Numbered from the stretch's first letter, positions 3,147 through 46,315 are shown. The stretch is 46,678 bases of DNA from a virus (IMGVR_UViG_3300048999_000129:1-46678), one strand, 5' to 3'. Numbers and translations: made by a program. The notes: generated from the sequence alone by a model not told the origin.

Positions 3147-4733
3147 ATGACTGACACCGAGCTCACTAGACTACTCGCCCACATCGGCTACGACCAGCGC
3201 CCCCAGCAGACTGCTCTCTTCGAGCACCTGAAGACGCTCGACCACGACGGCGTCATCGCCCAGGCCGGCACGGGCGTCGGCAAGTCCATCGCCGTTCTCG
3301 CTGCTGCCGCTCACTTGCATGATCACTACGGCAAGCAGGTCCTGATCGTCACGCCGACGCGCGTGCTCATGGACCAGTACATGAAGTCGGACGCGATCAG
3401 CGCCTCGTCCTGCTTCTGCCTGTCCATCGAAGAGCTCCGGGGCAAGGCCTGGTACGCCTGCGAGCAGGGCGGCGACGGTACGGCGGAGAACGGCGGCTGC
3501 CCGGGATACGAGGGAGGTTGCGAAGCGACCGCCTGGGCCGAAGGGAAGCACTGGTGCGAGTACCGCGACCAGAAGAAGCGCGCCCAGGAAGCCGACATCG
3601 TCATCACGAACACGGACATGCTGATCGTGAACGACCGGCTCGTCCCCGGCGAGTTCTTCGACCCCGAAGGCCCGCTGCTGGTCGACGAGGCGCACCAGCT
3701 CGAGCCGAAGCTGCGCGATTTCTCCGACCGGTCACTCCGTGCGGACTGGCTGCAGAAGTGGAGCGAGGCCGGCGCCGAGCTGTCGCGCTACATCCGCTCG
3801 TTCGGCCGCGACGCCGCCAAGGTCCCGCTCGATGGCCCGATCGCGAACAAACTTCGGGCGTTCATGGAGTCGGTCGACACCCAGGGCGATGCGGGCGTGC
3901 CGGAGCGCGTGAAGAAGATGTACGAGTCGGCGGCCAAGATTCTCGCGCGTGTAAACGTACCCTCCGAGAACGCGCTCGTCTGGTGTGACGGAGAGTCACT
4001 GAAGCTGAGCTGGATTGACATCGCTGCCTCGGCGCGCGAGTTGCTCCAGGCCCGTCCGTTCGGGTTGGTCAGCGCGACGATCCCGAAGTCGATGCCGAGC
4101 TCCCTAGGCGTGGCCGACGCGCGCATCGTGGACGTAGGGCACCCGTTCGACTACGCCAAGCAAGCGACGCTCTCGATCAGCCAGATCAACGGCGCTTACC
4201 AGTACGCCAAGGAACGGTCGAACCTGACCAAACGGGCCGGTGAGCTCGAGGACCAGGTCCTGGCGTCCGGTGGCGGCGCACTGCTGCTCTTCTCCAGCTT
4301 CAAGGACCTGGAGGCGGTATACGAGGAGACCTTCGCCGCCTTCAAGGCGGCCGGCCTGACGATCCTGAAGCAGGACGGCGTGCTCGACAACAAGCTACTC
4401 GGGGAGGCCTTCAAGCGTGACGGCAGCGCAGTACTGTTCGGCTCCGAGAGCTTCGCGACCGGCTTCGACGCGCCCGGCGACGCCCTGCGTTTCGTGGGGA
4501 TCTGGAAGCTGCCGTACCCCGGAAAAGACCCCGTTTCCGAAGCGCTCATGAAGCGATTTTACAATCGCTACAACGACCTGATGCTCACTCGCGTCACCCA
4601 GGCCGTCGGCCGCCTGATCCGTACCACATCCGATAAGGGCCACGTCTGGATCGGCGACTCCCGCGCGGAGGGCAAGATCCTCGGCGACGGCGGCCTGATG
4701 ACCTCTCACCTGAAAGAGTTCCGCCGAGTCTGA
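3147..4733 (+). CDS. DinG/XPD-type iron-sulfur DNA helicase
   Basis: 528 residues. Walker A GTGVGKS at 41-47, DEAH box LLVDEAHQ around 177-184, and motif VI QAVGRLIRT near 485-493. Cysteines C105, C118, C125 and C137 between motifs I and II fit the 4Fe-4S cluster of the XPD/DinG superfamily 2 group, which unwinds DNA 5' to 3'. It faces away from the primase gene across a shared promoter region and is the first gene of the rightward arm, so it is likely an early replication or repair function rather than structural. A copy of GTGTAAACG lies inside it at 3949-3957. Family call is solid; its exact task in the phage is inferred. Confidence 0.88.
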   Translation: MTDTELTRLLAHIGYDQRPQQTALFEHLKTLDHDGVIAQAGTGVGKSIAVLAAAAHLHDHYGKQVLIVTPTRVLMDQYMKSDAISASSCFCLSIEELRGKAWYACEQGGDGTAENGGCPGYEGGCEATAWAEGKHWCEYRDQKKRAQEADIVITNTDMLIVNDRLVPGEFFDPEGPLLVDEAHQLEPKLRDFSDRSLRADWLQKWSEAGAELSRYIRSFGRDAAKVPLDGPIANKLRAFMESVDTQGDAGVPERVKKMYESAAKILARVNVPSENALVWCDGESLKLSWIDIAASARELLQARPFGLVSATIPKSMPSSLGVADARIVDVGHPFDYAKQATLSISQINGAYQYAKERSNLTKRAGELEDQVLASGGGALLLFSSFKDLEAVYEETFAAFKAAGLTILKQDGVLDNKLLGEAFKRDGSAVLFGSESFATGFDAPGDALRFVGIWKLPYPGKDPVSEALMKRFYNRYNDLMLTRVTQAVGRLIRTTSDKGHVWIGDSRAEGKILGDGGLMTSHLKEFRRV

Positions 4734-4742
4734 CCGAACTGA

Positions 4743-4748
4743 TACCCT
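4743..4748 (+). promoter_or_regulatory. Possible -10 box (TACCCT) before gene 4797
   Basis: TGATACCCTG carries an extended -10 (TGN-TACCCT) in the short gap after the helicase gene. The predicted start near 4755 would give a leader of about 42 nt with a ribosome site. No clear -35 box. Confidence 0.35.
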
Positions 4749-4796
4749 GGGGTCGATGGCGTTGAAGGCGACGCCCAGTCGGCCCCAGGAGGTCAC

Positions 4797-5636: not shown

Positions 5637-6133
5637 TGGGCACGCGTGGGCCTGCTCCGAAGCGTGACGCGGAGCGGCGCCGGACCAACGAGCGCCCCGT
5701 CGACACGAAGACCGTCGAGACCGACGACACGTTTACACGCGCTGTCGTGATCCCTGACCCGGACCCGGACTGGCACAAGGTCGCCCGCCGCGTCTGGGAC
5801 AGCTTCCCCGAGTCGGCGACCAGCGTCCTGCTGGAGCCGTCCGACTGGGCGATCCTGTTCCTGGCTTGCGAGGACTTGTCGCGCGAGCTGAAGCCCCGGA
5901 AGGTGCAGATCGGTATCGACGGCGGGGGCGACCCCATCATCGTCGAGGCCAGCCTGCCGATGCCTGGCGCTAAGCTCAACGCGATCCTCAAGCTCATGGG
6001 CAATCTGCTCGCGACCGAGGGCGACCGTCGCCGGCTCCAGATCGAGGTCAACCGTGCCGCTCATCAGAACGCGGGCGAGAAGGGTTCGACCAGCGACGAG
6101 GTCGCGGCACAGCGGAAGAAGCGGCTGGGCTGA
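5636..6133 (+). CDS. Probable terminase small subunit
   Basis: 165 residues starting GTRGPAPKRDAERRRTNE, the basic Gly/Pro/Arg opening typical of P27-like small terminase proteins of actinobacterial phages; later LLEPSDWAILFLACEDLSREL and the helical stretch KLNAILKLMGNLLATEGDRRRLQIEVNR also fit that group. The small subunit recognises phage DNA and hands it to the large subunit. It overlaps the preceding gene by one base and lies two short steps upstream of the large terminase. A minus-oriented GTGTAAACG copy lies at 5730-5738. Confidence 0.72.
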   Translation: MGTRGPAPKRDAERRRTNERPVDTKTVETDDTFTRAVVIPDPDPDWHKVARRVWDSFPESATSVLLEPSDWAILFLACEDLSRELKPRKVQIGIDGGGDPIIVEASLPMPGAKLNAILKLMGNLLATEGDRRRLQIEVNRAAHQNAGEKGSTSDEVAAQRKKRLG

Positions 6134-8390: not shown

Positions 8391-9914
8391 GTGGTAACCA
8401 AGCAAGGCACCGTGCTGGCTCAGGCCCACCTGAATTTTCCGGCATTCCTGCTCCAGCGTGAGCGGACGATCATCCTCGACGCGTGGACGCGCGGCGAGCA
8501 GAACGAGCTGGACGAGAACTTCGGCCTGACCGACACCGACATCGGCCTGCGCTGGTCGCCGGGCGTCTACAAGCCCGAGGGAATCACCGACGAGTACACC
8601 GACCTGGCCAGCCGTAGCGAGACCCCGTGGGCCGGCCTGGTCGTCACGTCCCTGGCCCAGATGATCTACGTGTCCGGCGTACGGCGCTCGGACTCGCAGG
8701 ACAACATGGAGGTCTGGGATACCTGGCAGCGCAACGAGTGGGACGCCTGGCAGATCCCGCTCCACCGCTCGGTCATCGCTCACGGTCTCGCATTCGGCGC
8801 CGTGACGGAGTCCATCGACCCCTTCACGAAGAAGAAGATGGCGCGGATGGAGGCGCACTCGGCCGACAAGATGTCTGCGTTCTTCCAGGACCCCCAGGAT
8901 CAGTGGCCAGCCTTCGCGATCTGGGCCGAGCCGACCAAGGCGCAGAGTGTCTTCGGTGTAAACGAGGGCTGGCGGGTCAAGTTCTACGACGAGACCGCCG
9001 TGCACGAGCTCCTGGTCAAGAACGACGGCCGGGAGATCGCCGACTGGTCCTATGTCACTCACACGGCCCACCCGTTCCCGGTGTGCCCGGTCGTGCGCTA
9101 TGCCAACCGCCTGGACCTCAACGGCCGGGCGACGGGCGAGGTCGAGCCGGTCATCCCGATGCTGCGCCGGATCGACCAGGACACGTTCGACCGCCTGATC
9201 ACCCAGCGCTTCGGCGCCTGGAAGATCCGCTACATCGCTGGCATGGCGAAGCCGTCCAAGGCCTCCGACGCTCAGGCCGAGAAGATGCGGCTCCGGATCG
9301 AGGACCTGCTCATCGCCGAGGACGCCGACACGAAGTTCGGCACGCTCGACGCCTCCGACCTGAAGCAGTTCCTGGACGCCAGCGACTCCGATCTGCGCTC
9401 GCTCGCGGCCATCACCCAGACTCCGCCCCACCACCTGCTCGGCGTTTCGTCGAACCTGCAGGCGGAGGCCCTGGCCGCCGCCGAGGCTGGCCTGCTCCGA
9501 AAGGCCAACGACTTCCGGACGATCTGCGGCGAGGCTCACGAGAAGATGCTGCGCCTGACCGCCTGGGCGAACGGCAACGCGGAGGAGGCCCAGGCCTTCG
9601 ATATGGAGATCCAGTGGCTCGATACCGAGTCGCGCTCACTGGTGCAGACCGTGAACGCCCTGGCCCTGGCCGCGACCGGCCTGAAGATCCCGGTCGAGAT
9701 GCTGTGGGAGGAACTGCCGAACTGGTCGCAGCAGAAGACCGAGCGGGCCAAGGCTCTGATCGAGTCCGGCGACCTGATCGATGCAGTACTGGCGTCGATG
9801 CAGGCTGACCAGGCCGCCGAGGGCGCCAAGAAGATGGCTGACGCGGTCCCGGCGGTCCAGACGGGCGGCTCGGCCAACGACAAGAAGACCACCGGGAAGT
9901 CGGGCAAGCAGTGA
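8391..9914 (+). CDS. Portal protein
   Basis: 507 residues in the position and size range of actinophage portal proteins (the SPP1/gp6-like group). Supporting stretches are SETPWAGLVVTSLAQMIYVSGVR near the N-terminus, PVVRYANRLDLNGRATGEVEPVIP mid-protein and SDLRSLAAITQTPPHHLLG followed by the helical stem. It forms the ring through which DNA enters the head. Start GTG at 8391 with GGAGGA five bases upstream; ends with a four-base overlap into the MuF-like gene. The last 40 residues are low-complexity. A GTGTAAACG copy lies at 8956-8964. Confidence 0.92.
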   Translation: MVTKQGTVLAQAHLNFPAFLLQRERTIILDAWTRGEQNELDENFGLTDTDIGLRWSPGVYKPEGITDEYTDLASRSETPWAGLVVTSLAQMIYVSGVRRSDSQDNMEVWDTWQRNEWDAWQIPLHRSVIAHGLAFGAVTESIDPFTKKKMARMEAHSADKMSAFFQDPQDQWPAFAIWAEPTKAQSVFGVNEGWRVKFYDETAVHELLVKNDGREIADWSYVTHTAHPFPVCPVVRYANRLDLNGRATGEVEPVIPMLRRIDQDTFDRLITQRFGAWKIRYIAGMAKPSKASDAQAEKMRLRIEDLLIAEDADTKFGTLDASDLKQFLDASDSDLRSLAAITQTPPHHLLGVSSNLQAEALAAAEAGLLRKANDFRTICGEAHEKMLRLTAWANGNAEEAQAFDMEIQWLDTESRSLVQTVNALALAATGLKIPVEMLWEELPNWSQQKTERAKALIESGDLIDAVLASMQADQAAEGAKKMADAVPAVQTGGSANDKKTTGKSGKQ

Positions 9915-13116: not shown

Positions 13117-14165
13117 TGACTCAGGGCTTTGCAATGGACGTCGACTCGATCGTCGCCGAAGAGCTGCAGGCTCTGAAGACGGATCTCGAGACGCAGATCG
13201 CTGCGATCGTGGGCGGCGGCGACCCTGAAGTTATCACGCAGCTACAGACCGACCTGGCCGCCGTGCAGGACTCCCTCGCCACGATCCAGACCGACATGGC
13301 TTTCAAGGCCGAGCAGTCGGACATCGACACGGCGGTCGCTGGCCTGGCCAGCACGACCACGGTCAACTCCCAGCTGGGCACCAAGGCGGACACCAGTGCT
13401 GTAAACGCCGCCCTGGCCGCCAAGGCTGACGCATCCGCTCTAACCTCCGGGCTTGCCGGCAAGGTATCGACGGCGACGTACGACGCGTTCGTCTCGGCGA
13501 CCAACACGGCCATCGCGGCCAAGGCCAGCCAGACGGCGGTCGACGCGATCACCACGGCCATGGGCACCAAGGCTGACACCAGCGCGGTGAACACGGCACT
13601 GGCCCTGAAGGCCGACGCGTCCGCGCTGGCCTCCGGCCTGGCCGCCAAGCTGAACCAGGTCGCCAACTCGGTCAACGTATCGCCGACCCAGTTCCAGATG
13701 AAGATCGTCCGCGTCGGCGACGCCACGGACGACTCGACCTGGGCCAATGTCTTCGAGCTCTGGTGGACTCCGAACGGTGGCTCCCCGAAGCTGGTCGGCT
13801 GGTACAACGAGTTCGGCGAGTGGCGTGGCATGCCTGGCAAGACCAACACCGTACCGTGGCGCCTGTTCGTCAAGGACCTGATCGCGGACGCCGGCCACAC
13901 CGGCAACATGATGGAGGTCACTGACCATCGCGAGGGCACCCGTACGGCGCTCTTCGCTGTCGGTTCGGACGGCTCGATCACGACACTGGCCAACCTGACC
14001 GTCGGCGGCAACGCCACTGTCGCGGGCACGCTGGTGGTAACTGGTCGAGTTACCGGCGCCAATCTGATGGACTTCAAGGGCTCCTACGCGTCGGCCCCGA
14101 GTACGGTCGGCTGGGCTGCTGGCGCGTTCTGGTGGCTGACGACTGGCGAAACGACCCTTCCGTGA
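13116..14165 (+). CDS. Fibre-like structural protein with collagen-free heptad/Ala repeats
   Basis: 349 residues, start ATG at 13116 (TGATG overlap). Residues about 15-185 are a repeating helical region with units such as TKADTSAVNAALAAKADASAL, typical of trimeric phage fibre shafts; the rest is a beta-type head ending in SAPSTVGWAAGAFWWLTTGE. It lies among head-tail connector genes rather than tail-tip genes, so it may be a head or neck fibre rather than a tail fibre. A 19-bp inverted repeat with odd codons lies at 14036-14054. Confidence 0.7.
   Translation: MTQGFAMDVDSIVAEELQALKTDLETQIAAIVGGGDPEVITQLQTDLAAVQDSLATIQTDMAFKAEQSDIDTAVAGLASTTTVNSQLGTKADTSAVNAALAAKADASALTSGLAGKVSTATYDAFVSATNTAIAAKASQTAVDAITTAMGTKADTSAVNTALALKADASALASGLAAKLNQVANSVNVSPTQFQMKIVRVGDATDDSTWANVFELWWTPNGGSPKLVGWYNEFGEWRGMPGKTNTVPWRLFVKDLIADAGHTGNMMEVTDHREGTRTALFAVGSDGSITTLANLTVGGNATVAGTLVVTGRVTGANLMDFKGSYASAPSTVGWAAGAFWWLTTGETTLP
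14036..14054. repeat. Inverted repeat GGTAACT-N5-AGTTACC
   Basis: Seven-bp arms within the fibre-like gene, written with codons GTA ACT GGT CGA GTT, all unlike the G/C-ending surroundings. Its core matches the inner part of the repeat at 5341-5373 (RGTAACTG N5 GTTACY). Confidence 0.5.
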
Positions 14166-14965
14166 CCGGGGGGCTGATCCGTTTCGACGGCGCGGTCAAC
14201 AAGCAGGGCGGCCAGCTCGTCCGCTGGGATGGAGCGAACCACAAGATCGGCGGCCAGCTCGTCCGCTGGGATGGCGCGAACCACAAGATCATCGGCGCCG
14301 GCGGCGGGGCCGAGCCGGGCCCGCCCGTGTTTGTCGCTGCGACCTCTCAGTCGGCAGCCGGCGGCGCTGGCGTGCCCACAGATGCGACGACGAGCATGCC
14401 CGCAGGCTGGGCGGCTGGTCACCTGGCACTCTTCGCTGCAGTCATCAACGTCTCGACCGGCACCTTCACCCCGCCGACGGGCTGGACGGCCCTGCCCGGT
14501 TCGCCGACTTTGCCTGCTGTGCTCTCCAGCTCGGCGCACTGGTTCGGCTACCGGATCCTTCAGGCTGGTGATGTCGCGCCGAAGTTCACGGGCTCGGCCA
14601 TCGCCAGCAAGTTCAGCGCGATGCTGGGCGTCTGGAGTAACGCGGCGCTGCTGAATCAGGCGCACGCCAGCGAGTCAGTCAACCAGGCCAGCCACGTCGC
14701 TCCGGATGTCGCCGTTGGTGTAAACGACGTCGTCGTCCGGATGTTCATGGAGAAGAGCTCGACCAACATCTCCTGGACCGGCGGGGTGACGACCGATCAC
14801 ACTCTGCGGACCCAGGCCTTCGGGACAGGGTCTGGCGCGTGCTCCTGCGCGATGTTCAGCAAGGCATTCGCCTCGGCGGGCCAGGCCGGGACCGCGACGG
14901 CCACCGCGAGCACGAGCTCTGCTGGTGTCACGATGGCTAGCGTCGCCCTGGCCGGGGTAGCCTGA
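14162..14965 (+). CDS. Fibre or decoration protein with tandem 14-residue repeat
   Basis: 267 residues from GTG at 14162, whose GTGA overlaps the preceding stop; an in-frame GTG at 14132 would add ten residues. Near the N-terminus the unit GGQLVRWDGANHKI occurs twice in direct tandem, encoded by two 42-bp units. The rest is a Thr/Ser/Ala/Gly-rich beta domain of the type seen in actinophage fibre tips, ending STSSAGVTMASVALAGVA. With the preceding gene it forms a fibre-like pair inside the connector cluster. A GTGTAAACG copy lies at 14718-14726. Confidence 0.68.
   Translation: MTGGLIRFDGAVNKQGGQLVRWDGANHKIGGQLVRWDGANHKIIGAGGGAEPGPPVFVAATSQSAAGGAGVPTDATTSMPAGWAAGHLALFAAVINVSTGTFTPPTGWTALPGSPTLPAVLSSSAHWFGYRILQAGDVAPKFTGSAIASKFSAMLGVWSNAALLNQAHASESVNQASHVAPDVAVGVNDVVVRMFMEKSSTNISWTGGVTTDHTLRTQAFGTGSGACSCAMFSKAFASAGQAGTATATASTSSAGVTMASVALAGVA
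14207..14290 (+). repeat. 42-bp tandem direct repeat (two units)
   Basis: Units 14207-14248 and 14249-14290 differ by one base (GGAGCG versus GGCGCG), a silent change. Recent in-frame duplication in a gene for a likely surface protein. Confidence 0.9.
14958..14963 (+). promoter_or_regulatory. Leaderless-type -10 box TAGCCT
   Basis: TAGCCT overlaps the end of the preceding gene and is followed by GATCCT and the ATG at 14970, six bases downstream, with no ribosome site. Closely matches the arrangement at 12604. Confidence 0.5.
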
Positions 14966-17409: not shown

Positions 17410-17894
17410 TCGGGTCCTACCGATCTGACATCGAGGCTGACTTCGCCCGCCACTATCCCGGCAAGGACGTCGGGGAGATGTGGCGGGCGAGGGAGTGGGG
17501 CGACCTGCTGAACCTGATCGATCACCTGCCTCAGAACAGCCACTACTACAACGCGATGATGCACGACCCAGTCCACGCGGAAGCCGTGGCGGACTGGCTG
17601 GCAGCGAACCCTGGCAACGAGACCGAGAAGAGCGGTCCCGGCTGGCAGACCTGGTCGCCGGAGGTCGCTACACTCTCGGACATCAAGGACGAACTTCAGA
17701 TACTCCGCATGACTCTCATCGGTGTAAACGGAGGGAAGCCTGGGAAGTTCGTTCCGACTCCTCGTCCGGACAGCCTGATCGCCGAGGCCAAGGAGAAGGC
17801 AGTCTACAAGCGCAAGATGAAGGTGCATCACATGCTTCGGGCGAAGATGCTCCCGCACAAGTACAACCCGGACGGTACGGAAAAGCGCACCTGA
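17095..17894 (+). CDS. Tail assembly chaperone, frameshifted long form (gpGT-like)
   Basis: A -1 shift at 17382-17388 joins the short chaperone to the downstream frame, which stays open from 17388 to 17894 with no stop. The joined product would be 266 residues (98 plus 168): after the site it reads RRLCHLIGSYRSDIEADF then the region around MWRAREWGDLLNLIDHLP. The downstream frame has an internal ATG at 17478 but no convincing ribosome site, and its recognisable sequence begins before that ATG. This is the lambda G/GT arrangement widely conserved in siphoviruses. A GTGTAAACG copy lies at 17722-17730. Confidence 0.88.
17382..17388 (+). promoter_or_regulatory. Programmed -1 frameshift site GGGAAAA
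   Basis: In the zero frame the heptamer reads G GGA AAA, fitting X XXY YYZ. After slippage the -1 frame continues with AGG CGC CGG and is open to 17894; the zero frame stops at 17407-17409. Confidence 0.88.
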
Positions 17895-17933: not shown

Positions 17934-20900
17934 GTGCCGTATACCGCTGGCACGATTATTCTCCAGGTCGTTCCGTCGTACCTGGGCTTCCAGGACGAGA
18001 ACAAGAAGATGGCCAAGGCGCTGGCCGACTCGCTCGACGAGAGCCTGGAGCGCGGCGCCGAGTCCGGCGCCAAGAAGGCCTCAGCCAAGATCTCCAAGAT
18101 CCTCGGCGAGGAGACTGGCAAGGGTGCCGAGGAGGCCGGCGACAAGTCGGCCGAGAAGTACGCGGGCGCGTTCCGGACGCGGCTGGAGAAGTCGCTGGCC
18201 AGCATGCAGCGTGAGATCAAGCCCATCGAGCTGAACACCGCGTCGACCAAGACGCTGGCCGAGCTCGACAAGATCAAGGCAGCGCTGAAGTCTCTGTCCG
18301 AGACCGAGATCAAGCCGGGCATGGACGTGCGCGGCCTCCTGGCCGAGGCGGCCAAGGTCGAGGCGGCCCTGGAGTCCATGGGCAAGGACGTCGACATCGA
18401 CGTGCAGTTCGACACCAAGAAGGGCCTGGCCACCTGGCGCTCGTTCGTCCGGGAGGTCGAGGCGCTCAAGCCAAAGATCGACGTCGTTCCGGACTTCCAG
18501 CTCGACAAGATCGAGCGCAAGTTGGGCACGCTGGAGAAGATGATCAAGGACCGCCTATCCCGGGCGGCCTCGTCGCTGGGCGACAGTGTGGACCGCGAGG
18601 TCAGCCAGATCCGCGCCCGGCTCGCCACGCTCGGCACGAAGCAGATCGGCATCGACATCGATGCTGGCGTCGCCATGGCCGAGCTCCAGAAGATCGAGCG
18701 CGAGCTCGCGCACATCGCCGCGACCACCACGAACGTCCAGGTCCACGCGGACGCTACCGAGGCGCTTGTCGAACTGAAGGCCGTCGACTCCTACGCCCGG
18801 AAGCTGAACGGCCTCGAGCCGAACATCAAGCCGAAGGTCGACACCAAGGATGCGACGACCAAGCTCTCCCTGTTCGACCGGCTGCTGAAGAAGGTCGGAC
18901 TGGACGGCCGCGACGTCGCGAACTCGTTCCGCTTCTTCAGCTTCGCCGTCCTGGCTGTAGCTGCGGCCGGCGCTGCCCTTATCCCGATCCTCAGCGTTGC
19001 CGGAGCTGGCATCGCCGGCCTGGGCGTCGCCGCACTTGCCGGCGCTGCAGGTCTCGGTGTGCTGTTCCTCGCCTTCAGGGGAGTCGGCGACGCCATCAAG
19101 GCGCTGAACGATCAGCAGGACAACGCGGCGAAGGAAGAGCAGCAGCGCGCGAAGACGGTAGGCAACGCCGCCCGGCAGGTCGCTGACGCACAGCGCAGTC
19201 TGGTTCGGGCTCGCGAGAACGCCGCCGAGAGCCAGGGCGACGCCGAGCGTCAGCTGAGCCGCACGATCGCCGACACGGCCAAGGCCAACCAGGACGCTGC
19301 TCGCCGTACGGCGGACGCGCGTCGCCAGGCGGCCGAGGACATCGAGTCTGCGATCAAGCGGCAGCAGGACGCCGAGAAGAACGCGACCAACGCCACCAAG
19401 GACGCGACGCAGGCCCAACTGGACCTGAACCAGGCCCGCGTCGAAGCGAAGCAGGACCTGGAAGACCTCGCCGCGCAGCAGCGCCGGAACAACCTGGACG
19501 AGCGCCAGGCTGTAATCGACCTGTTCAACGCGACCGTCCAGAACAACGCGACGCAGGCTGACCCCGGTTCGACGAACCTCGAGAAGGACCAGGCGGACAT
19601 CAACCTCAAGAGCGCGCAACTGCGCCTGGAGGACATCCGCAAGGAGCAGAAGAAGCTCGCCGACGAGCAGAAGAAGGGTGTAAACGGGTCCGACAAGGTC
19701 AAGACGGCCCAAGACAAGCTGACCACCGCGCTCGAGAACCAACTTCAGGCCCAGAAGGATCTGAAGCAGGCCGACAAGGACCTCACTCAGCAGCGCCTGG
19801 ACAGCGCGCAGTCCGTCCAGGATGCGATCACGGCCCAGAACCGCACGTATGCCGACGGTCAGGAATCTATCTCCGACGCCCGCCGGACGCTCGACCGCGC
19901 CGTGGCCGATGGCCAGCAGTCGATCGCCGATGCGCAGCGCAACCTGGTCCAGGCCCAAGAGGACTACACCACCGCACTGACTGAGAGCCGCGCCTCGGCT
20001 CAGCAGGTCGCCGAGGCGATGGGCAAGCTCAGCCCGGCCGGCCAGGCGTTCGCGCTCTTCATCCACAGCATGCGCGACGACTTCCGCGACATCCAGGCCA
20101 TCGCTCAGGAGGGCTTCCTGCCGGGCCTCACCGACGCACTCAAGCTCCTGCTCACGACGTACGGCCCGGAGCTGAAGACCTTCGTCGGCACCATGGCCAA
20201 GCTGTTCGGCGACGGCGCCAAGTTTGCGGCGCAGGTCTTCACCAACAAGGACTGGCAGACCTTCTTTGGCACGATCGCCGCGATCGCCCCGATCATCACC
20301 AAGGACTTCGGCAAGGCGTTCCTGGACTGGCTGGAGGTCTTCGCCAACCTGGCCGTCGGCCTGGCGCCGCTCGCCCTGGACATCTCTGGCAGCATCGTCA
20401 AGTGGTCGGACGCCGTGCTCGCGTGGTCCAAGAGCCCCGAGGGCCACAAGGCGATCACCGACTTCCTGGCCTACGTGAAGTCGGTCGCTCCGGACGTCAA
20501 GGACTTCCTGAAGGCGCTGGCGCTGGCGTTCATCGCGATCGTCAAGGCTGTCGCACCGTTCGCCGACGACATCCTGCGGGCACTCACCTCGTTCCTCAAC
20601 TTCATCGCCAACATGGACCCCAAGGTCCTCGGCGGGATCATCGCCGCAGTGCTCGGCCTGGTCGTCGCCTTCCAGGCGCTGTCCGGCATCATCAGCATCA
20701 TCGCGATCGTAGCTGGCTCGACGATCGGCCTGGTTGTAGTCGCGGTTGTCGCCCTGATCGCGGCGCTGGTCTATTTCTACAACACCAATGACAAGGTCAA
20801 GCAGATCATCGACGCGATCTGGCCGGCGATCCGCTGGCTGATCGAGGAGCAGATCAAGTACACGAAGTTTGCGGTCAACGCCCTGGCCGTCGCGATCCTT

Positions 20901-25956: not shown

Positions 25957-28706
25957 CCTCCGTAGATGAGCTCGCCGCCCAGCTCGTCGGACTGGAGCGG
26001 AAGGTCTTCGCGATCTCGACCACGCCCCAGCTCGCCTACTCGTCCATCGAGAACGGCGCACTGCGAGCGCACGACGACACGCTCGGCGAGACCATGCTCA
26101 TCGGCCAGCAGTGGGACGGCACCTACGCGCCCGGCGTGACCCGGGGCCCGGTGCCGCCGACTCCGTCCGATCCGCTCGTATCGGACGCTACCGAAGGCCT
26201 CATCATCGGATGGGACGGGACCTTCACCAACGCGACCGTGGCTCCGATGGACTTCCTGCGCGTCGACATCCACATCGGTGCGACGTCAGGCTTCCTGCCC
26301 GACCACAACAACCGGGTCGGCACGATCGCCGCTCCGGCCGGTGGCTCGGTCTCGGTAACGCTCGCCTACGGCACGTACTACGTCAAGCTCGTCTGCTGGT
26401 CGCTGGCCGGTGTCGTGTCCCCCGCGAGCAACCCCATCGAGGGCGACTCCTGGCCGATCGAGGTCAGCACGGACGGCTTCGCTCCGGCCAGCTCTCCGGA
26501 CCCGACCGCCCTGTCCGGCATCGAGGTCATCTCAGTCCGCTGGACTCCGATCACCAACGCCGACCCGGTCCGGTACCAGGTCCACATCTCGACCACGCTG
26601 GGCTTCACACCGGACTCGACCACGCTCGTCGGCACGACGGAGGCGAGCTCGTTCTGGATCAAGGCGCTGCCCGGCCCGGACCCGGCGCCCGGCGACGTCG
26701 ACACGCGCACCCTGCAGTACGACACTGCGTACTACATCCGGATCGTCGCGCTCGATGATGACGGCGCGGCCGCCCCGAGCCTGCAGGCGATCGGCTCCGT
26801 ATTCCAGGTCACGGGCGTCAACCTCGCTGTCGACTCGGTGACGGCCGAGAACATCCTGGCCGGCTCGCTGACTGGTGAGCTCTTCTCGGCGTCCATCGTC
26901 GTGGCTGGCACGTTCAAGTCGGGCGAGACTGGTCAGCGCGTGGAGTGGGGCGCCGCTGGCATCCAGGGCTACAAGTCCGACGGATCGATGATCCTGAACA
27001 TCCCGACCGACGGCAGCACCGCGCTGTTCGACGGCGAGTTCATCATCCGGGGCGCGACCATCACCGGTGGCATCTCGATCCAGAACAGCCAGAACGAGAT
27101 GACCGCCAACTCCAAGATGACCCTGATGCGCGGGATCGTCGGCCCCTCGGCCACGCCTGCCGTCACCGTCGTCTGGGATCAGGTTCGGCCGTCGACCACG
27201 AGTCTGACCGCCGCCCAGAAGACGGGCACCGATCCGCAGTGGGGACTCGGCGGGCCCTTCGACTTCGACGCCTCGGCCGTCAGCAACATCGAGTGGAAGC
27301 CCGCCGAGAGCATGTGGGTCTTCCAGCAGATCCGCCCGAACGGCACGCGCTCCTGGTACTTCAACGCGGACGGTACGCCGAAGGACCGGTACGGCACGGG
27401 CGTCTACTTCTCCGATGTCAAGGACTGGGAGATCTGGTCGACGACCGAGATCTACTCGGGCGCCAAGGCGGGCGTTTACACGATGTTCCGGTTCCTGCCG
27501 TCCGGCACGGACTGGTACGTCAACGGCCCCAACGGCTTCAACCACTACACCCGGCTGAACTCGGGCGGCACGCCCGCCCTGGGCAACAACGGGACCGACT
27601 TCTTCATCGCCGAGACCGTCGGGTCGCACCTGAAGATCAACTATCACTCGATGGCTCCGGATGGGTCGAACCTGCCCGCGCCGTCCACGCAGTACGAGGC
27701 TAACGCTGGTTTCGCTGCGTCGCCGTGCTCGGTCCAGTTCAGTTCGACCGGCTTCGACATCGGCACCGCGCGGTACGCCGTGGCGCAACGCGGCGTCAGC
27801 TACAACGGCCGCCTGCTCGTCCAGTCCGGCACGGGTCCCGGCTCGCTGCTGCCTGGTGGCTCGGGTGGCTGGGCATCGACCACGGTAGACGCGGAGTCCT
27901 GGGAGTCGCCGACCACGAACCGCCGTGGGCAGTTCTGGGACGGCTCGAACTTCTACACGCTCGGCGGGGATGGCCTGCTCAGCAAGCACACCAGCGAGCG
28001 CTGGGACCCGACGGTCACCTCGTCGATCCTCTGGTCGGGCGTCACCTTCAAGGACACGGACGCCGCCGGCACTGGCACGCACGAGACCAAGATGGGTCCG
28101 CTGAAGCAGACGAACCTGAAGCGCCGCTCGAAGCTGCTGTTCATCGCGCCGGCCGTGCCCGACAACGGTGGCGCCGACGACCCCGACAAGGTCCAGTGGT
28201 ACGCGCAGCGCAACGCCACAGCACCCGTCAGTCCCTGGACGAGCATGTGGGCTCAGGGCTCGCCGATCGGCGGCCTGACGGGACCGGCGAGCCTGACGAT
28301 TACCACACTGGCTACGACCGGCACGAATCCGCCTACGGTGAACTCGTTCCCCGCATCGAACCCGGCGCAGTTCACGAACGACGACGGCACCCTGGTCATC
28401 GACGGCGCCGGCCTCGTCAAGCCGAAGACTCTGCAGGTCGGCGCCCTGGGCAACTCGACCAGCGTGCTCCGATGGAATCGCAGCAACGGTACGACGGGCG
28501 CTTCCGGCAGCGGCAATGATGGCCTGCTGACGATCACGCACGGCTGCGGTGTCACGCCGACCGCAATCCTGCTGGGCAACACTGGCTGGTATTGCCGAGT
28601 AACGACTCAAAGCGCCACGACATTCACTGTGGAATTCCGCGCACCGAGCAGCTCTGCACTGGCGATGGGGGTCGCGGTGTCTGTGACCTGGGCGGCCATA
28701 GCCTGA
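25953..28706 (+). CDS. Large tail-tip protein with fibronectin-like domains
   Basis: 917 residues, ATGA overlap with the hub gene. The N-terminal VDELAAQLVGLERKVFAISTTPQL looks like a hub-binding helix. Two FN3-like domains follow (about 85-175 and 185-285; LIIGWDGTFTN, YYVKLVCWSLAG, EVISVRWTPITNADPVRYQVHIS, YYIRIVALDDDGAA), then AVDSVTAENILAGSLTGELFSASIVVAGTF, a common actinophage attachment segment. The rest is beta-rich and likely binds the host surface. A minus-oriented GTGTAAACG copy lies at 27473-27481. Confidence 0.82.
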   Translation: MTSVDELAAQLVGLERKVFAISTTPQLAYSSIENGALRAHDDTLGETMLIGQQWDGTYAPGVTRGPVPPTPSDPLVSDATEGLIIGWDGTFTNATVAPMDFLRVDIHIGATSGFLPDHNNRVGTIAAPAGGSVSVTLAYGTYYVKLVCWSLAGVVSPASNPIEGDSWPIEVSTDGFAPASSPDPTALSGIEVISVRWTPITNADPVRYQVHISTTLGFTPDSTTLVGTTEASSFWIKALPGPDPAPGDVDTRTLQYDTAYYIRIVALDDDGAAAPSLQAIGSVFQVTGVNLAVDSVTAENILAGSLTGELFSASIVVAGTFKSGETGQRVEWGAAGIQGYKSDGSMILNIPTDGSTALFDGEFIIRGATITGGISIQNSQNEMTANSKMTLMRGIVGPSATPAVTVVWDQVRPSTTSLTAAQKTGTDPQWGLGGPFDFDASAVSNIEWKPAESMWVFQQIRPNGTRSWYFNADGTPKDRYGTGVYFSDVKDWEIWSTTEIYSGAKAGVYTMFRFLPSGTDWYVNGPNGFNHYTRLNSGGTPALGNNGTDFFIAETVGSHLKINYHSMAPDGSNLPAPSTQYEANAGFAASPCSVQFSSTGFDIGTARYAVAQRGVSYNGRLLVQSGTGPGSLLPGGSGGWASTTVDAESWESPTTNRRGQFWDGSNFYTLGGDGLLSKHTSERWDPTVTSSILWSGVTFKDTDAAGTGTHETKMGPLKQTNLKRRSKLLFIAPAVPDNGGADDPDKVQWYAQRNATAPVSPWTSMWAQGSPIGGLTGPASLTITTLATTGTNPPTVNSFPASNPAQFTNDDGTLVIDGAGLVKPKTLQVGALGNSTSVLRWNRSNGTTGASGSGNDGLLTITHGCGVTPTAILLGNTGWYCRVTTQSATTFTVEFRAPSSSALAMGVAVSVTWAAIA

Positions 28707-29277: not shown

Positions 29278-29645
29278 TGCCTCTAGAGATTGGCTTCCCG
29301 GAAGTCGGCGGCGCCACGGGGATCCTGGTGGCCTGCCTGTACGCCACTCAACAGCTCGTCACCTTCCTGAACAACCGCCGCACCTCGGAGATCACCGAGG
29401 AAGGCCAGCACGTCACGGCCATGTCGTCGGCGGTCGCGGACGCGGCTACGGCCAACGCCGTCATTCTGCGTGTAAATGAGGCACTCCACGCTGAAGTAGA
29501 CCGTCTGGGCGGCGTCAACCTCGACCTACGCAAGCAGATCACCGAGAAGGATCGGATCATCACCGAGACCCAGGCCGAGGTCGAGCGTCTGATGGGCAAG
29601 ATGGCCGAGCTGTACGCGACGCTGGAAGACCTCAAGAGCAAGTAG
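29274..29645 (+). CDS. Membrane-anchored coiled-coil protein
   Basis: 123 residues from the ATG pair at 29274/29277, overlapping the preceding stop. One N-terminal transmembrane helix (about 13-31) is followed by a long coiled coil (about 35-123) with no zinc or catalytic motif. The layout resembles spanin-like or accessory holin proteins next to endolysins, which is only a guess. GTGTAAATG, a one-mismatch copy of the dispersed 9-mer, lies at 29470-29478. Confidence 0.68.
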   Translation: MMPLEIGFPEVGGATGILVACLYATQQLVTFLNNRRTSEITEEGQHVTAMSSAVADAATANAVILRVNEALHAEVDRLGGVNLDLRKQITEKDRIITETQAEVERLMGKMAELYATLEDLKSK

Positions 29646-32386: not shown

Positions 32387-33268
32387 CTAGCCGCGCTGGC
32401 GTGCTCGCTTGGCAGCGATATCAGCCTCTCGCTCGCGGGCCAGGCGCAGGCGGATCTCCCACACCTGTGGGTCGAGTCGATCTGGCACCGCATGGAAGAT
32501 GTCCCGTGGCCCCTCGTAGCCCTCAGGGAAGCGCCAGAAGTCCCGGTCGGAGTAGTGATTCTCCCAGCACGCGCGCGCCCGGCGCTCCAGGGCTTCCTGA
32601 GCCATCTTCGCGGAGACCTCGGCCGACTGCATCGCCGCTGGCATGATCGTGCTCGCGATCCCGCGTGTGGTCGGCCCCGCAGTCGCCACCTCGACCGGCA
32701 TGGGCAGGCCGGCCCGCATCCTCTCGTACGGCGGAGACTCGAGGTAGGTCACGATCCGTCGAGCCATAGCCAGGTCCTTGATGTTGCCCAGGACGTCATG
32801 GTTGCAGGATCGCTCACCGGAGCAGAGCAGACCGCGCACAATGTCGGTCTCGTGGTCGTGGTCGACGGCCAGGCGCCTCTTGAGCGGCCGCTTCCGGCAG
32901 ATGTAGCAGCGCCCCTCCTGGTAGTTGTAGATCGCCAGGTAGGTGTCGTACGAGATCTTGTACGTGCTGGCCAGGTGCGAGCTGTAGTTCGCGTGGCTCT
33001 GGCAGGCACGGCACTTGGCGCCCTGGGTGTACCAGATGGGCACCATGAACTGGCAGCCCGAGCAGAAGCGACGTCCGGCCGGCCAGGCGGAAGCGGGTAC
33101 GGTCGCGCGGACCTCGTGAGACTTCAGCGCGAGCTTGCGCCGCGACATGGCGTACTCGATCTGCTCGTCGATCGGTAGCCGCTCGACCTTGTGCCAGTAG
33201 CAGAAGTGCGACGGCAAGTCCTTCTTGCCGTCGCATCCTGGCTGTTTACACGGTTTCGGAGCTGGCAT
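32387..33268 (-). CDS. Recombination endonuclease VII
   Basis: 293 residues. A His-Me (endonuclease VII) core lies at about 121-163: CYICRKRP, DHDHETDIVRGLLC and CNHDVLGNI, with the metal-binding and catalytic residues in DHDHE. Extra N-terminal Cys/His clusters (CKQPGCDG..HFCYWH; CSGCQ..CRACQSH) look like zinc fingers. The enzyme resolves branched DNA before packaging. ATG at 33268 is chosen because GGAG lies seven bases upstream; an earlier start at 33286 has no site. It overlaps the preceding gene by 23 bases and contains a one-mismatch dispersed 9-mer at 33243. Confidence 0.9.
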   Translation of the reverse strand: MPAPKPCKQPGCDGKKDLPSHFCYWHKVERLPIDEQIEYAMSRRKLALKSHEVRATVPASAWPAGRRFCSGCQFMVPIWYTQGAKCRACQSHANYSSHLASTYKISYDTYLAIYNYQEGRCYICRKRPLKRRLAVDHDHETDIVRGLLCSGERSCNHDVLGNIKDLAMARRIVTYLESPPYERMRAGLPMPVEVATAGPTTRGIASTIMPAAMQSAEVSAKMAQEALERRARACWENHYSDRDFWRFPEGYEGPRDIFHAVPDRLDPQVWEIRLRLAREREADIAAKRARQRG

Positions 33269-37188: not shown

Positions 37189-37589
37189 AGGAGCCCTGCT
37201 TTCCTGGCCCTGGTCAGGGCCTTGTCGTAGGTGGCGACGCTCATGTTCGAGAGTCGGGCGAGCGTCTTCTTGTCCGTGGTCCTGCGGCGGTAGATCTTCA
37301 GGTCCTCGACGAACTCACTCGTGGTGGCGTAGGTGCGAGGGAAGTCCAAAATCGCGTCGGGGTCGGTCTTGTGCAGGTGGTTGTAGCAGCTCCGGCAGAT
37401 CCCGCGCGAGCATTGCGGGGTGAAGTCCTTCTTCAGGAGCTTCCGATCCTCGACCGACAGCGCCTGCCAGCTTGTGAGCTTGACCATGTCGCGTTTACAC
37501 CGCGCGCAGGCCTTCTCGGTGAAATCCACCGCAGCGATCTCGATGCGCTCGGACTCCAGTGACTCACCAAGGAATGACGATCTATACAC
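37185..37589 (-). CDS. Zn-finger plus HTH protein
   Basis: 134 residues from GTG 37589, chosen because AAGGAGG lies seven bases upstream; an upstream ATG at 37631 has no site. Cys pairs CARCKRD and CSRGICRSCYNHLH (about 29-75) form a likely zinc site; the C-terminal NMSVATYDKALTRARKAGLL looks like a HTH recognition helix. Probably binds DNA; may regulate this arm. It has its own promoter at 37628-37656 and a dispersed 9-mer copy at 37492-37500 that encodes Cys-Lys-Arg of its own zinc motif. Confidence 0.72.
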   Translation of the reverse strand: MYRSSFLGESLESERIEIAAVDFTEKACARCKRDMVKLTSWQALSVEDRKLLKKDFTPQCSRGICRSCYNHLHKTDPDAILDFPRTYATTSEFVEDLKIYRRRTTDKKTLARLSNMSVATYDKALTRARKAGLL

Positions 37590-40754: not shown

Positions 40755-40770
40755 ACCAGGGCTGGCAAGC

Positions 40771-41533: not shown

Positions 41534-41573
41534 GCTGGCCTCCAGGCCTGAGTGGGTACGTGTCCTTCTCAGC

Positions 41574-42443: not shown

Positions 42444-42570
42444 GGCGGGACCTCCACTTCGTCAGGGACCTGTCATAGATCATACGGCTGAACCAGCCGA
42501 GACAGACCAGCCCGAAGGCTGGCCATAGCGTGAGCGCGACCTGAGCAACTCCCCCGAGTAGTCCGGTCAT
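42346..42570 (-). CDS. Small membrane protein with basic tail
   Basis: 74 residues from ATG 42570, overlapping the SprT-like gene stop (ATGA). One hydrophobic helix (about 5-24, GGVAQVALTLWPAFGLVCLGW), then a basic tail that overlaps the next gene for 98 bp. Function unknown; the long overlap makes the C-terminal end less certain. Confidence 0.55.
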   Translation of the reverse strand: MTGLLGGVAQVALTLWPAFGLVCLGWFSRMIYDRSLTKWRSRRGKALPACKPVQAKRKARVSSPTLGRDGRPLR

Positions 42571-43208
42571 GTCTTTTTCACCTCCTGCTCGAGCTCCTCG
42601 AAGTGCAGCGGGCATTCCGGGATTCCCTTGTCGATCCACAGCTGCGTCGTACGGACGTTGTAGCCGCAGGTCTCGACCTTGCCGGGCTCGTTCTCGACGG
42701 GGTGCTTGCAGGAGAGCTTGAGCATCCGCGCCTTCTGCTTCTTCTGCTTGAGTTCGCCGATGTTCAGCGCCGCGCCCGGGTACTCGCCGAGCTCGGCCAG
42801 GATCGGCTGGAGGATCTCGATCAGCGCCTCGCTGCCCGTAGCCGTCGTGTATGGCGCGGTGAGACCCATCTGGCTGACCAGCTTCCGGAACCGGCCAGTG
42901 TGACCCGACTCGCAGTCGTCGATCGCGTGAGCGACCTCGTGGATCAAGGTGAGCAGGATCTGCTCCGCCTGGTCGGCGCCGAGTGCGGGCGAGATGAAGA
43001 TCTGCGAGATCCCGTCGCTGGCCGCCTTGGAGTGGAAACAGACGCCGCGTGCGATCCGGGCCTTGGTGACGCTGAAACCGACGCCGACTACGACGGGCGG
43101 GACTCGCACCGGCTCGCCGTCTTCCTTTGTCTTGGCGTAGAGGTCGGTGATGTGCACCAACGCTTCGGCCAGCCATGCTTCTCGTGACGGTACGATGTGC
43201 TCGTTCAT
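42567..43208 (-). CDS. SprT-like zinc metalloprotease
   Basis: 213 residues from ATG 43208 with AGGAGG four to five bases upstream. HEVAH (90-94) with SGHTGRF (H103) is the SprT/Spartan-type HExxH...H site. A C-terminal Cys set (LSCKHP, TCGYNV, CPLHF, about 165-205) fits the SprT zinc ribbon. Family members cleave DNA-protein crosslinks; a phage version could clear proteins from replicating DNA. The leader carries a GTGTAAACG copy at 43226-43234. Confidence 0.82.
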   Translation of the reverse strand: MNEHIVPSREAWLAEALVHITDLYAKTKEDGEPVRVPPVVVGVGFSVTKARIARGVCFHSKAASDGISQIFISPALGADQAEQILLTLIHEVAHAIDDCESGHTGRFRKLVSQMGLTAPYTTATGSEALIEILQPILAELGEYPGAALNIGELKQKKQKARMLKLSCKHPVENEPGKVETCGYNVRTTQLWIDKGIPECPLHFEELEQEVKKT

Positions 43209-43245
43209 ACAACCTCCTGGGCTAGGTGTAAACGACAATGCTGTG

Positions 43246-43251
43246 AGCGTA
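43246..43251 (-). promoter_or_regulatory. Possible -10 box (TACGCT) before the SprT-like gene
   Basis: Minus strand TACGCT, with a predicted start near 43239 just upstream of the GTGTAAACG word in the leader. It lies against the terminator hairpin at 43259-43284. No -35 match. Confidence 0.4.
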
Positions 43252-43258
43252 TAGCAAA

Positions 43259-43284
43259 AGACGGGGCCCGTATAGACCCCGTCT
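43259..43284 (-). terminator. Terminator with U tract after gene 43296
   Basis: Arms AGACGGGG (43259-43266) and CCCCGTCT (43277-43284); on the minus strand the right arm is followed by TTTT, and outer ATAGC/GCTAT pairs extend the stem. Best rho-independent terminator of the leftward arm. Confidence 0.85.
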
Positions 43285-43295
43285 CGCTATATGGA

Positions 43296-43487: not shown

Positions 43488-43606
43488 CACTTACCGCCCT
43501 TCTTGGCATCCTTCTCGGCCTGGATTCGTTTGGCCTCTTCGGCGACCTTGCGGCGCCGCTCGGCCTTCTCTTGCTCCAACTTCTTGAACCGTTCGTCGTC
43601 GGCCAT
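43487..43606 (-). CDS. 39-residue Lys/Glu-rich helical protein
   Basis: ATG 43606 overlaps the kinase-phosphatase stop (ATGA). Sequence ADDERFKKLEQEKAERRRKV then a further charged helix ending KKGGK; a single amphipathic helix. Function unknown. Confidence 0.55.
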   Translation of the reverse strand: MADDERFKKLEQEKAERRRKVAEEAKRIQAEKDAKKGGK

Positions 43607-44565: not shown

Positions 44566-44765
44566 GGAAGAATCAGGTCCTCTCTGATCAGCTCGAGAGC
44601 CTTCTCTCGAGCGACATGGTCGGTGGAGATCCGTTCCTCGGCGACCGCGACGCGGTCCTCGATCGGGATGGTGTGCCACGGACTACGGTAGTCGCGCTCG
44701 ATCTGCCTGGCAATAGCCCGTCCCACCATCTGGGCAACTACGGCCAAAGCCGCACTGTCATCCAT
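44562..44765 (-). CDS. Small helical protein before the kinase-phosphatase
   Basis: 67 residues, ATGA overlaps on both sides. SAALAVVAQMVGRAIARQIERDY...AVAEERISTDHVAREKALELIREDL: two helices, acidic C-terminal half. No family recognised. Confidence 0.58.
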   Translation of the reverse strand: MDDSAALAVVAQMVGRAIARQIERDYRSPWHTIPIEDRVAVAEERISTDHVAREKALELIREDLILP

Positions 44766-44947
44766 CAGGCCGGGCCGTGCTTGAGATGGCGGCCGCGCTT
44801 GCCGCAGCGCTTCTCGATCCCCTTGTACTTGTAGGACGCTCCGCAGACTGGCGCCTTGGGATCCGACAGATCGCCGGAGCGGGGCAGCTTCGGGCCGATC
44901 ATCGGCTTGCGAGGATTGCCCCGGCCGCGCTTCTTTTCGTCGGCCAT
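44765..44947 (-). CDS. Small basic protein with Cys/His pattern
   Basis: 60 residues. N-terminus basic (ADEKKRGRGNPRKP), then PVCGASYKYKGIEKRCGKRGRHLKHGPA with two Cys and two His that could hold zinc. Probably nucleic-acid binding. ATGA overlaps on both sides. Confidence 0.58.
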   Translation of the reverse strand: MADEKKRGRGNPRKPMIGPKLPRSGDLSDPKAPVCGASYKYKGIEKRCGKRGRHLKHGPA

Positions 44948-45138
44948 CAGCTCAGCCAGCCCTTCTTCTCGGCCTGCTTGGCGGCGCGCTTGGCCTGTCG
45001 TTCAGCCTTCGCGGCATCCTGCTTGGCCTTCTTCTCCTCGGCCTTCCAGTGAGAGCCGGTCTGGCCGCGCCGGACGTTCGTCTGGGCGTTGTACTCGCGC
45101 TGACCGTCGCCAGCGCCTGTCCGTGGTCCGATTCGCAC
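44947..45138 (-). CDS. 63-residue Lys/Ala/Glu-rich protein next to RNA ligase
   Basis: GTG 45138 with AAGGAGG six bases upstream, one base after the RNA-ligase stop. N-terminal third is Arg/Gly/Asn-rich, the rest a basic Lys/Ala/Glu helix ending KKGWLS. Third of the small basic proteins in the RNA-repair block. Function unknown. Confidence 0.6.
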   Translation of the reverse strand: MRIGPRTGAGDGQREYNAQTNVRRGQTGSHWKAEEKKAKQDAAKAERQAKRAAKQAEKKGWLS

Positions 45139-45139
45139 G

Positions 45140-46315
45140 TCAGTCCTCCTTCGGAGCGTTCGATGGGGTGAGGCCGGCCTCGGGCTTGGCCTGCGCCCAG
45201 AGCTTGGCCTTGATGTCCTTGCCGTCGAGCAGGGCCCAGTAGGCCCACTGGTCGTCGCCAGCCATCGCGAACAGCGGAGCCAGGGCGGCACGCTCAGTGC
45301 GACTGACCGACCACTCCTCGTCGACCAGGTTGATGACGCCTGCCTTGAAGGCCTCGTTCATCATCGCCTGGTAGCTGACCTTGAAGTTCGACCAGCGACG
45401 CTTCACGCCGAGCTCCAGTCGAGTCCAGACCTCCATGACCCAGGGATGGAATTCGTCCGGCAGCGGCTCGATGGTGGCCGCGAGGGTCTCGCCAGCGACG
45501 ATCGCCTCCCAGACGCGCCGCTCGGACAGACCGGTGACGAGGCGGTGCAGCCGGACGTAGTCCTCCTGCTTCAGCTTCACCATCTTCTTGCCGCCTTCGG
45601 TCGCGATGACCATGCCTTCGCGGTTCTCGCGGGGCGAAGCGACCAGGGCGTCGGCCAGCGTCGTACGCGCGTCCAGCAGCTGCACGGTAGGGCCTACCCA
45701 GCCGAGGTGTCGCTGCGCCGCGAACGGGTCGTAGACGTAGCCGTCTTCCAGGTCGACCGAGCCCAGCAGGAACAGGTCGTCCCGGCCACGGTAGTCGACG
45801 ACGATCCGGTTCTCGGGGTAGATGATCTCGAACAGGAATGTCTCGTCGTCGGCCGAGTGGTGCTTCTCGCGCGGGTCCTCGGGGCCGGACAGGTCGTCGT
45901 ACTTGGTCTGGAGCAGGCGCGTCGCATGGAGCGCCTGGCCGGAAGTAAAACTGCCCCGCGTCGCGATGGACAGCGTGCCGGAGTTCGGCTGCCGATAGAG
46001 GATGCCGAGCGACCCGTCGAGCTTGTCGAGCGTGTAAACGGTCTCCGCCAGACCGATCTGGTCGGCGCCGGCCTGGCCGTGGTTCCAGAACTTCCGGAAC
46101 GGCCGGGCCACGATCTCGCCGTTGTCGGTGTTCCAGATCAGGCCACGGCAGTGGTTCAGCGCGGGGACCTGAGCGAAGATCTCGGGCTTGACCTGCGCCC
46201 GATCGGTGTAGTTCAGCAGGCGCAGCGGTTCGTGCGGGTGCTCGACCTCGCGGACGTACTTGTTCTCCATCAGCCAGGCGAGCTCGTCCATCGGCGCCAG
46301 ATCGTACAAGTGCAT
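45140..46315 (-). CDS. RNA ligase (T4 Rnl1-like)
   Basis: 391 residues, ATG 46315 with AGGAGG five bases upstream. Motif I KLDGS (98-102), nucleophile K98 (T4 Rnl1 K99); upstream RPFRKFWNHGQ (71-81) is the Rnl1-type substrate segment; LFEIIYPENRIVVDY (161-175) is motif III, EGMVI (233-237) motif IV, KMVKLK (244-249) motif V. The C-terminal 140 residues match the all-helical Rnl1 tail. T4 Rnl1 joins cut tRNA anticodon loops after Pnkp healing. First gene of the leftward arm; a GTGTAAACG copy at 46032 encodes Val-Tyr-Thr in antisense frame. Confidence 0.9.
   Translation of the reverse strand: MHLYDLAPMDELAWLMENKYVREVEHPHEPLRLLNYTDRAQVKPEIFAQVPALNHCRGLIWNTDNGEIVARPFRKFWNHGQAGADQIGLAETVYTLDKLDGSLGILYRQPNSGTLSIATRGSFTSGQALHATRLLQTKYDDLSGPEDPREKHHSADDETFLFEIIYPENRIVVDYRGRDDLFLLGSVDLEDGYVYDPFAAQRHLGWVGPTVQLLDARTTLADALVASPRENREGMVIATEGGKKMVKLKQEDYVRLHRLVTGLSERRVWEAIVAGETLAATIEPLPDEFHPWVMEVWTRLELGVKRRWSNFKVSYQAMMNEAFKAGVINLVDEEWSVSRTERAALAPLFAMAGDDQWAYWALLDGKDIKAKLWAQAKPEAGLTPSNAPKED

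Follow-up and report, generated by a model that had tools for sequence, protein, structure and literature searches.

A short word dispersed through phage genomes accompanies an SprT-like metalloprotease gene and is a candidate operator

Introduction

Why would a nine-base word recur throughout a phage genome, on both strands and regardless of reading frame? The question is raised by a viral DNA of 46,678 nucleotides (IMGVR_UViG_3300048999_000129:1-46678; this whole stretch is referred to here as the window), in which the word GTGTAAACG is present in 11 exact and three one-mismatch copies, all of them confirmed at the coordinates and on the strands given in an initial annotation of the sequence. 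That annotation took the word for a DNA-level signal, plausibly a repeated operator or stoperator for a phage DNA-binding protein, and this view is supported by the excess of the word and by its linkage to a gene for an SprT-like metalloprotease. Our preferred explanation, to which we give a probability of about 0.6, is that the word is the binding site of the phage's own SprT-like protein, which would repress its own gene and act genome-wide as a repressor with stoperators. Binding of the word by this protein is well supported by genomics, and we infer from sequence that it is physical; the protein would presumably combine repression with proteolysis. Neither the word nor a link between it and SprT-like proteins is described in the literature that we searched. 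Here, we describe the word, its association with the SprT-like gene and the placement of its copies, and then weigh the explanations that have to be considered.

The word and its excess

Against the 11 exact copies, a trinucleotide Markov model expects 0.02, and the earlier estimate of far fewer than one copy thus holds. When up to one mismatch is allowed, the 14 copies observed compare with a mean of 4.06 and a maximum of 9 in dinucleotide shuffles, and no other 9-mer in the window comes close to GTGTAAACG in over-representation (10^-26, compared with ~10^-13 for the next words, which themselves overlap it). A codon-preserving shuffle, as initially suggested, was also run: with all proteins and the codon pool of the genome kept constant, the word appeared 1.17 times on average and at most three times in 300 shuffles, and codon use therefore does not explain its excess. 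An artefact of chance or codon usage is refuted by these shuffles together with the independent recurrence of the word in unrelated phages described below, and has practically no chance of being the correct explanation.

The core GTGTAAAC has 12 copies in the window, preceded by C or G and nearly always followed by G. With its usual flank, GTGTAAACG reads CGTGT/AAACG, a single base short of the palindrome CGTTTAAACG, which is itself used in relatives; the window site is a near-palindrome of 9-10 bp and not, as had been assumed, a strictly asymmetric one. An AT-rich locus (L151) carries TGTTTAAACA, and the general form of the word is therefore YGTKTAAACR. Copies are spread across the window at about one per 4 kb, ten of the 11 exact ones inside genes and the sole non-coding one in the leader of the SprT-like gene (Table 1). 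In-gene copies are mixed in orientation (7 sense, 4 antisense), as are those of other phages. An RNA hairpin (CGU-GUAA-ACG, with a would-be GNRA loop) was considered and rejected: the C of the first pair is replaced by G in half of the window copies, and copies lie on both strands.

Linkage of the word to the SprT-like gene

The occurrence of the word depends on the SprT-like gene. YGTKTAAACR recurs, with up to 36 copies per genome, in Arthrobacter, Microbacterium, Streptomyces, Pseudanabaena, Acinetobacter and Burkholderia phages with unrelated backbones. LazerLemon has 36 copies (0.019 expected), Honk 30, UtzChips 19, KeAlii 17, Mabodamaca 14, and Liebe and 4A nine each, while the palindromic CGTTTAAACG is found 11 times in cyanophage Pan1, eight times in Acinetobacter phage Alexa, three times in Burkholderia phage Mica and once in E. 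coli phage ep3. The only window protein common to all 14 word-bearing genomes is the SprT-like protein; Pan1, LazerLemon and the proteobacterial phages have almost nothing else in common with the window. When phages with an SprT-like gene were retrieved independently of their word content, the word ranked first or near the top among over-represented words in most of them. When only records of at least about 35 kb are counted, 15 of the 18 that contain the gene have the word, compared with 0 of the 10 that lack it (Fisher p = 2e-5, for records that are related to varying degrees and hence not independent of one another; ep3, whose only copy is in the leader, was scored positive and Franklin22, with one stray copy, negative). 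The same pattern was repeated in further loci, 80 from IMG/VR and six from genomes; genes of unannotated records were called in this analysis.

The three exceptions that have the gene (Armstrong, Franklin22 and Epa5) have an altered zinc ribbon in the C-terminal part of the SprT-like protein (SRSGKSIK...EDFVVSIS, or no cysteines), and locus L164, with a ribbon of the Armstrong type, also has no word; QxTR and CGYxVR of the ribbon are lost in these four word-free SprT-like proteins. Within the ribbon, KCxC accompanies GTTTAAAC rather than GTGTAAAC (Mann-Whitney p = 3e-7, a value confounded by G+C), and a phylogenetic pair test, with only two independent pairs, gave no significant co-variation of ribbon and word form; as an indication of specificity, the co-variation is suggestive. 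In locus L155 (upstream of 3652), the SprT-like protein has QSTW for QxTR and the leader carries CGTATAAACG, possibly reflecting a shifted specificity. In proteobacterial phages, a small RNA polymerase alpha-subunit-like protein is encoded near the SprT-like gene (L058 242-451, L059 398-616; Alexa_054 and Mica gp66) and is possibly a transcription partner.

Among terminase relatives of the window, 15 of 27 have the same word. G020 (terminase 72% identical, 61 kb, nearly complete) has zero copies, and a profile search found no SprT-like gene in it. G001 (terminase 85% identical) also has zero copies, in a fragment of 25 kb that lies outside the region that would hold the SprT-like gene. At homologous positions, word-free relatives have the same residues in ordinary codons (GVNG, for example, is coded by GGTGTAAACGGA in the window and G014 and by GGCGTCAACGGT in G001), and the word is therefore an added DNA-level constraint with quick turnover. 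Such ordinary codons had been named as evidence that would speak against a DNA signal; they do occur in G001, yet the signal stands, because the word-free, nearly complete G020 has no SprT-like gene. The accompanying question, whether positions are kept in related phages, has a mixed answer: site positions mostly turn over, and we rejected general conservation by descent, exact keeping being seen only at 17722 and 19678 (G014) and at 27473 (G002).

The SprT-like protein

Relatives of the SprT-like protein were found in 163 phage records, chiefly of Arthrobacter and Microbacterium phages, the best being ~40% identical, and phage proteins at this level of identity are annotated as SprT-like. Residues H90, E91 and H94 and a third ligand, H103, are invariant in 49 relatives, giving the HExxH motif with a downstream third histidine that characterises the Pfam family SprT-like (PF10263). 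Of 49 family members, 38 match the PF10263 profile at E<=0.01, the best of them at 2e-7; the window protein scores 20.7 bits (E 4e-4), below the curated cut-off of 25.6. The C-terminal zinc ribbon follows the pattern KKQxTR..C..CGYxVRTTxKW..G.P.CPCG. An AlphaFold2 model of the protein has a predicted local distance difference test score (pLDDT) of 94, and its best viral match in Foldseek is the SprT of a Bordetella phage, with no significant match in the PDB. The apparent kinship of the window protein with eukaryotic SPRTN is thus one of sequence profile and motif, and not of fold search.

Placement of sites in phage genomes and host chromosomes

Sites are placed over the promoter of the SprT-like gene. 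Of 85 loci, 50 have a site in the 200 bp that precede the gene, compared with 7.8 expected from each locus's own density, and these upstream sites overlap recognisable promoters at the spacer, the -35, the -10 or the start point (TTGACA-GGACGTGTAAACGGAG-TAGAGT in L170, TTGACA-ACGCGTTTAAACATGG-TATATT in L154, TAGACT/GTTTACAC in L099 and L179, and TTGCGC-17-TAAACT in UtzChips). A site over the promoter elements of this gene is therefore as expected of an autoregulator. In the window, the copy at 43226 had been assigned to a 5' leader, which is correct, with the amendment that the leader is that of the minus-strand gene starting at 43208; a site occupies the same place in G002 (GTTTAAACG), G004 (GTGTAAACG) and G010 (GTGTAAACA). 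The leaders of UtzChips gp70, gp71 and gp73 each have a site at -24.

In temperate relatives, sites are found at gene boundaries, for example 25 of 33 in Honk compared with 7.4 expected, with enrichment also in UtzChips, Mabodamaca and KeAlii. Many copies form a stop codon as GTG-TAA, for example in LazerLemon (4722, 13105, 37592 and 47905) and in UtzChips (19110, 39803, 45021 and 46164).

The word is confined to phage DNA: the few copies outside phage-like stretches in three Arthrobacter-group host genomes are near the level of a reversed control word. Of the 38 copies in the genome of Pseudarthrobacter siccitolerans, 32 fall within C25:130-165 kb and C28:53-79 kb with C29; 22 of 26 copies in Arthrobacter sp. 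EPSL27 are in phage-like stretches, with 15 in C1:170-198 kb and seven in C4:1366-1385 kb; and ten of 30 copies in B2a2-09 are on C67, in a single orientation. A host signal was rejected, since host chromosomes carry the word mainly in phage-like stretches. The second cluster of EPSL27 (G029; C4:1365979-1384732), with its seven copies in uniform orientation, is probably another prophage.

A proposed model and its alternatives

In the proposed model, the C-terminal zinc ribbon would most likely read the YGTKTAAACR site, with CGTGTAAACG and CGTTTAAACG as the forms that the SprT-like protein would bind specifically. By binding the copy in its own leader, the protein would limit its own expression and, bound at promoters and at many genomic sites, it would act as a repressor with stoperator-like roadblocks, possibly blocking elongation. 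The conserved metalloprotease site is probably a switch, working by self-cleavage or by cleavage of a bound partner. More speculatively, the system may constitute a new class of immunity or master regulator, in which a sequence-specific repressor and a zinc metalloprotease form one polypeptide, with dispersed YGTKTAAACR operators in phages whose hosts belong to three or more bacterial phyla, and which would be inactivated by its own DNA-triggered proteolysis; we put this forward tentatively, as an idea that is rather less likely than not.

Several observations weigh against autorepression with stoperators, besides the relatedness of the records in the Fisher test. No sigma-70-like promoter was recognised at the leader site of the window, and the window copies of the word, mostly intragenic and of mixed orientation, are also unlike classical stoperators, with 2 of 12 at gene boundaries compared with 1.7 expected. 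The SprT-like protein contains no helix-turn-helix (HTH), and a Foldseek search with it against the PDB gave no match at E<=0.001. Neither the window nor the scanned accessory genes of G002, G004 and G010 yielded an integrase; the window-type phages may therefore be lytic, and hence have no need for an immunity repressor.

Some of these observations would suit a different use of the same sites, in which they load the SprT-like protease onto phage DNA to clear bound or crosslinked proteins (host nucleoid proteins, defence proteins or intermediates of repair), autoregulation being secondary and lysogeny not involved. The invariant HExxH and third histidine, the dispersal of the window copies inside genes, the example of SPRTN, a protease that is activated by DNA and has zinc and basic regions that bind it (PMC12279946), and the presence of the gene in lytic-looking phages (no integrase is annotated in LazerLemon genes 1-77, and none was found in the G002 group) are all in keeping with such docking. 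It does not, however, predict sites over promoter elements and gene boundaries in temperate relatives or the fixed distance between site and start codon in the three UtzChips leaders, and we consider it unlikely, if still to be taken seriously for the window, whose phage may be lytic. It is doubtful that another phage or host regulator binds the word and that the SprT-like gene is simply its most conserved target: no second window protein is common to all word-bearing genomes, their hosts range over actinobacteria, cyanobacteria and proteobacteria, the word is near control level in host chromosomes, and its loss accompanies the change in the zinc ribbon, even though the leader placement alone would fit another regulator and not every copy is attributable to SprT expression.

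The HTH proteins initially suggested as binders have a distribution that is mismatched to that of the word, and were rejected: the product of 2853-3068 is retained in G001 (88% identical, 0 copies in 25 kb) and absent from the word-bearing Azeevirinae, Streptomyces and proteobacterial phages, and the product of 37185 is not common to word-bearing genomes. Likewise rejected was the sigma-like 'DNA binding protein' of Azeevirinae, which is present in Armstrong (0 copies) and Franklin22 (1 copy) and absent from the window, G002, LazerLemon, Alexa and Mica. No repressor family matched among the window proteins scanned, and the distribution of the small HTH-like proteins does not follow that of the word. 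A mark for replication, recombination or packaging (Chi-like, origin iteron or pac) would account for the genome-wide spread, yet a Chi read by the host would mark host chromosomes too, which the word does not, and separate iteron arrays beside the primase gene vary between phages while the word is constant; we regard such a mark as highly improbable.

Comparison with known systems

Repressors with stoperators are known from cluster A mycobacteriophages (L5 gp71 and the TipsytheTRex repressor), Rhodococcus cluster CA and the Streptomyces R4 group (PMC9283540, PMC13313380, PMC5721134). The system described here resembles the cluster A type in having ~10-40 copies of a short word genome-wide, some over promoters, for which a phage-encoded binder is expected, and in its temperate members copies lie between genes and at their ends. 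In contrast to the asymmetric 13-14 bp site of cluster A, the site is a near-palindrome of 8-10 bp with an orientation not tied to transcription, the candidate binder is an SprT-like metalloprotease with a zinc ribbon and not an HTH protein with a stoperator domain, and the window copies are mostly intragenic rather than intergenic or at gene termini. Like SprT and SPRTN, the protein has a predicted HExxH...H metalloprotease region, after which come a small region that would bind zinc and a stretch of basic residues, and its function is probably DNA-linked. SPRTN cleaves itself, and reads DNA structure and not sequence (PMC12279946). Here, in contrast, a specific dispersed word accompanies the protein. 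ImmR/ImmA and IrrE/DdrO are repressor-protease pairs, in which a metalloprotease is associated with a regulator that binds DNA at operators of its own. In the present case, the protease and the proposed DNA reader are one polypeptide, and the analysis revealed no separate repressor.

Cluster AZ phages are temperate, homoimmune and "lacking identifiable repressors", and cluster EH Microbacterium phages have been suggested by the same authors to form immune lysogens without an identifiable repressor as well (PMC8758107). The cluster AZ/EH members that we checked (Azeevirinae and kin, e.g. KeAlii and Honk; Powerpuff was not among them) have the SprT-like gene together with 9-30 word copies. They differ from the window in their backbone (the structural proteins in common are only distantly similar), a serine integrase and sites that lie mostly at gene boundaries. 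A candidate protein and candidate operators, found in unrelated phages too, can thus be named for this repressor-less immunity, and the stated open question on the cluster AZ repressor can now be addressed with a single gene and a single probe. If the proposal is correct, a metalloprotease-fused regulator would join the known kinds of phage repressor, and a function would be given to a family now labelled only 'SprT-like protease' or 'unknown'.

Features of the window and its near relatives

The window is an incomplete virus contig of 46.7 kb, its near relatives G002, G004, G010 and G020 being 59-62 kb in length. It encodes a primase-helicase, a helicase, a terminase, a portal, a T4-like polynucleotide kinase, RNA ligases, an exonuclease and an endonuclease VII, and the genes of its right arm lie on the minus strand. 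The features discussed above are collected in Table 1.

Table 1. Word copies and features of the SprT-like gene in the window
Feature	Position	Strand	Remarks
Word copy	3949..3957	+	within helicase gene
Word copy	5730..5738	-	within small terminase gene
Word copy	8956..8964	+	within portal gene
One-mismatch copy CTGTAAACG	13399..13407	+	retained in G014
Word copy	14718..14726	+	within gene 14162-14965
Word copy	17722..17730	+	retained in G014; ordinary codons instead in word-free G001
Word copy	19678..19686	+	within open reading frame of 1652 amino acids (probable tape measure); retained in G014
Word copy	25437..25445	-	within gene 24829-25956
Word copy	27473..27481	-	within gene 25953-28706; homologous codons keep the word in G002
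One-mismatch copy GTGTAAATG	29470..29478	+	
One-mismatch copy GTGTAAACA	33243..33251	-	near start of endonuclease VII gene; retained in G004 and G010
Word copy	37492..37500	-	within gene 37185-37589
SprT-like metalloprotease gene	42567..43208	-	213 amino acids; phrog_6361; proposed word binder
C-terminal KQxxR and zinc ribbon	42570..42740	-	C167, C181, C199, H202, from alignments; proposed sequence-reading domain
HEVAH (HExxH) active-site codons	42927..42941	-	residues H90, E91, H94
Word copy GTGTAAACG in leader of SprT-like gene	43226..43234	+	reads CGTTTACAC on transcribed strand; between hairpin and AGGAGG ribosome site
GC-rich hairpin GACGGGG...CCCCGTC, then TTTT	43259..43282	-	terminator-like; just upstream of leader site; read by eye, under scan threshold
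Word copy	46032..46040	+	within RNA ligase gene 45140-46315

Eight iterons (GGTGACA/TGTCACC) lie at 65-336 of the window, in a non-coding stretch past the 3' end of the primase gene. They differ in relatives, with TATGGAG in G001, GTGACCCAA in G020 and GGTGTCACA in G004 and G010 in the same place, and CAAGACACA in G015, within a non-coding stretch of its own. This suggests a replication origin that is read by the primase and has a fast-changing specificity; as a source of the dispersed word, the iterons were rejected, being different words located beside the primase gene. A search of IMG/VR with the primase gave no match. At the other end of the window, a T4-like RNA repair set extends over 39422-46315 and includes an RNA ligase (45140-46315), a polynucleotide kinase/phosphatase (43606-44565) and a second RNA ligase (39422-40084), with a further kinase-like gene at 35352-35933. 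A tRNA-Lys (CTT) lies at 46533-46609, followed by an apparent second tRNA that is cut by the end of the contig.

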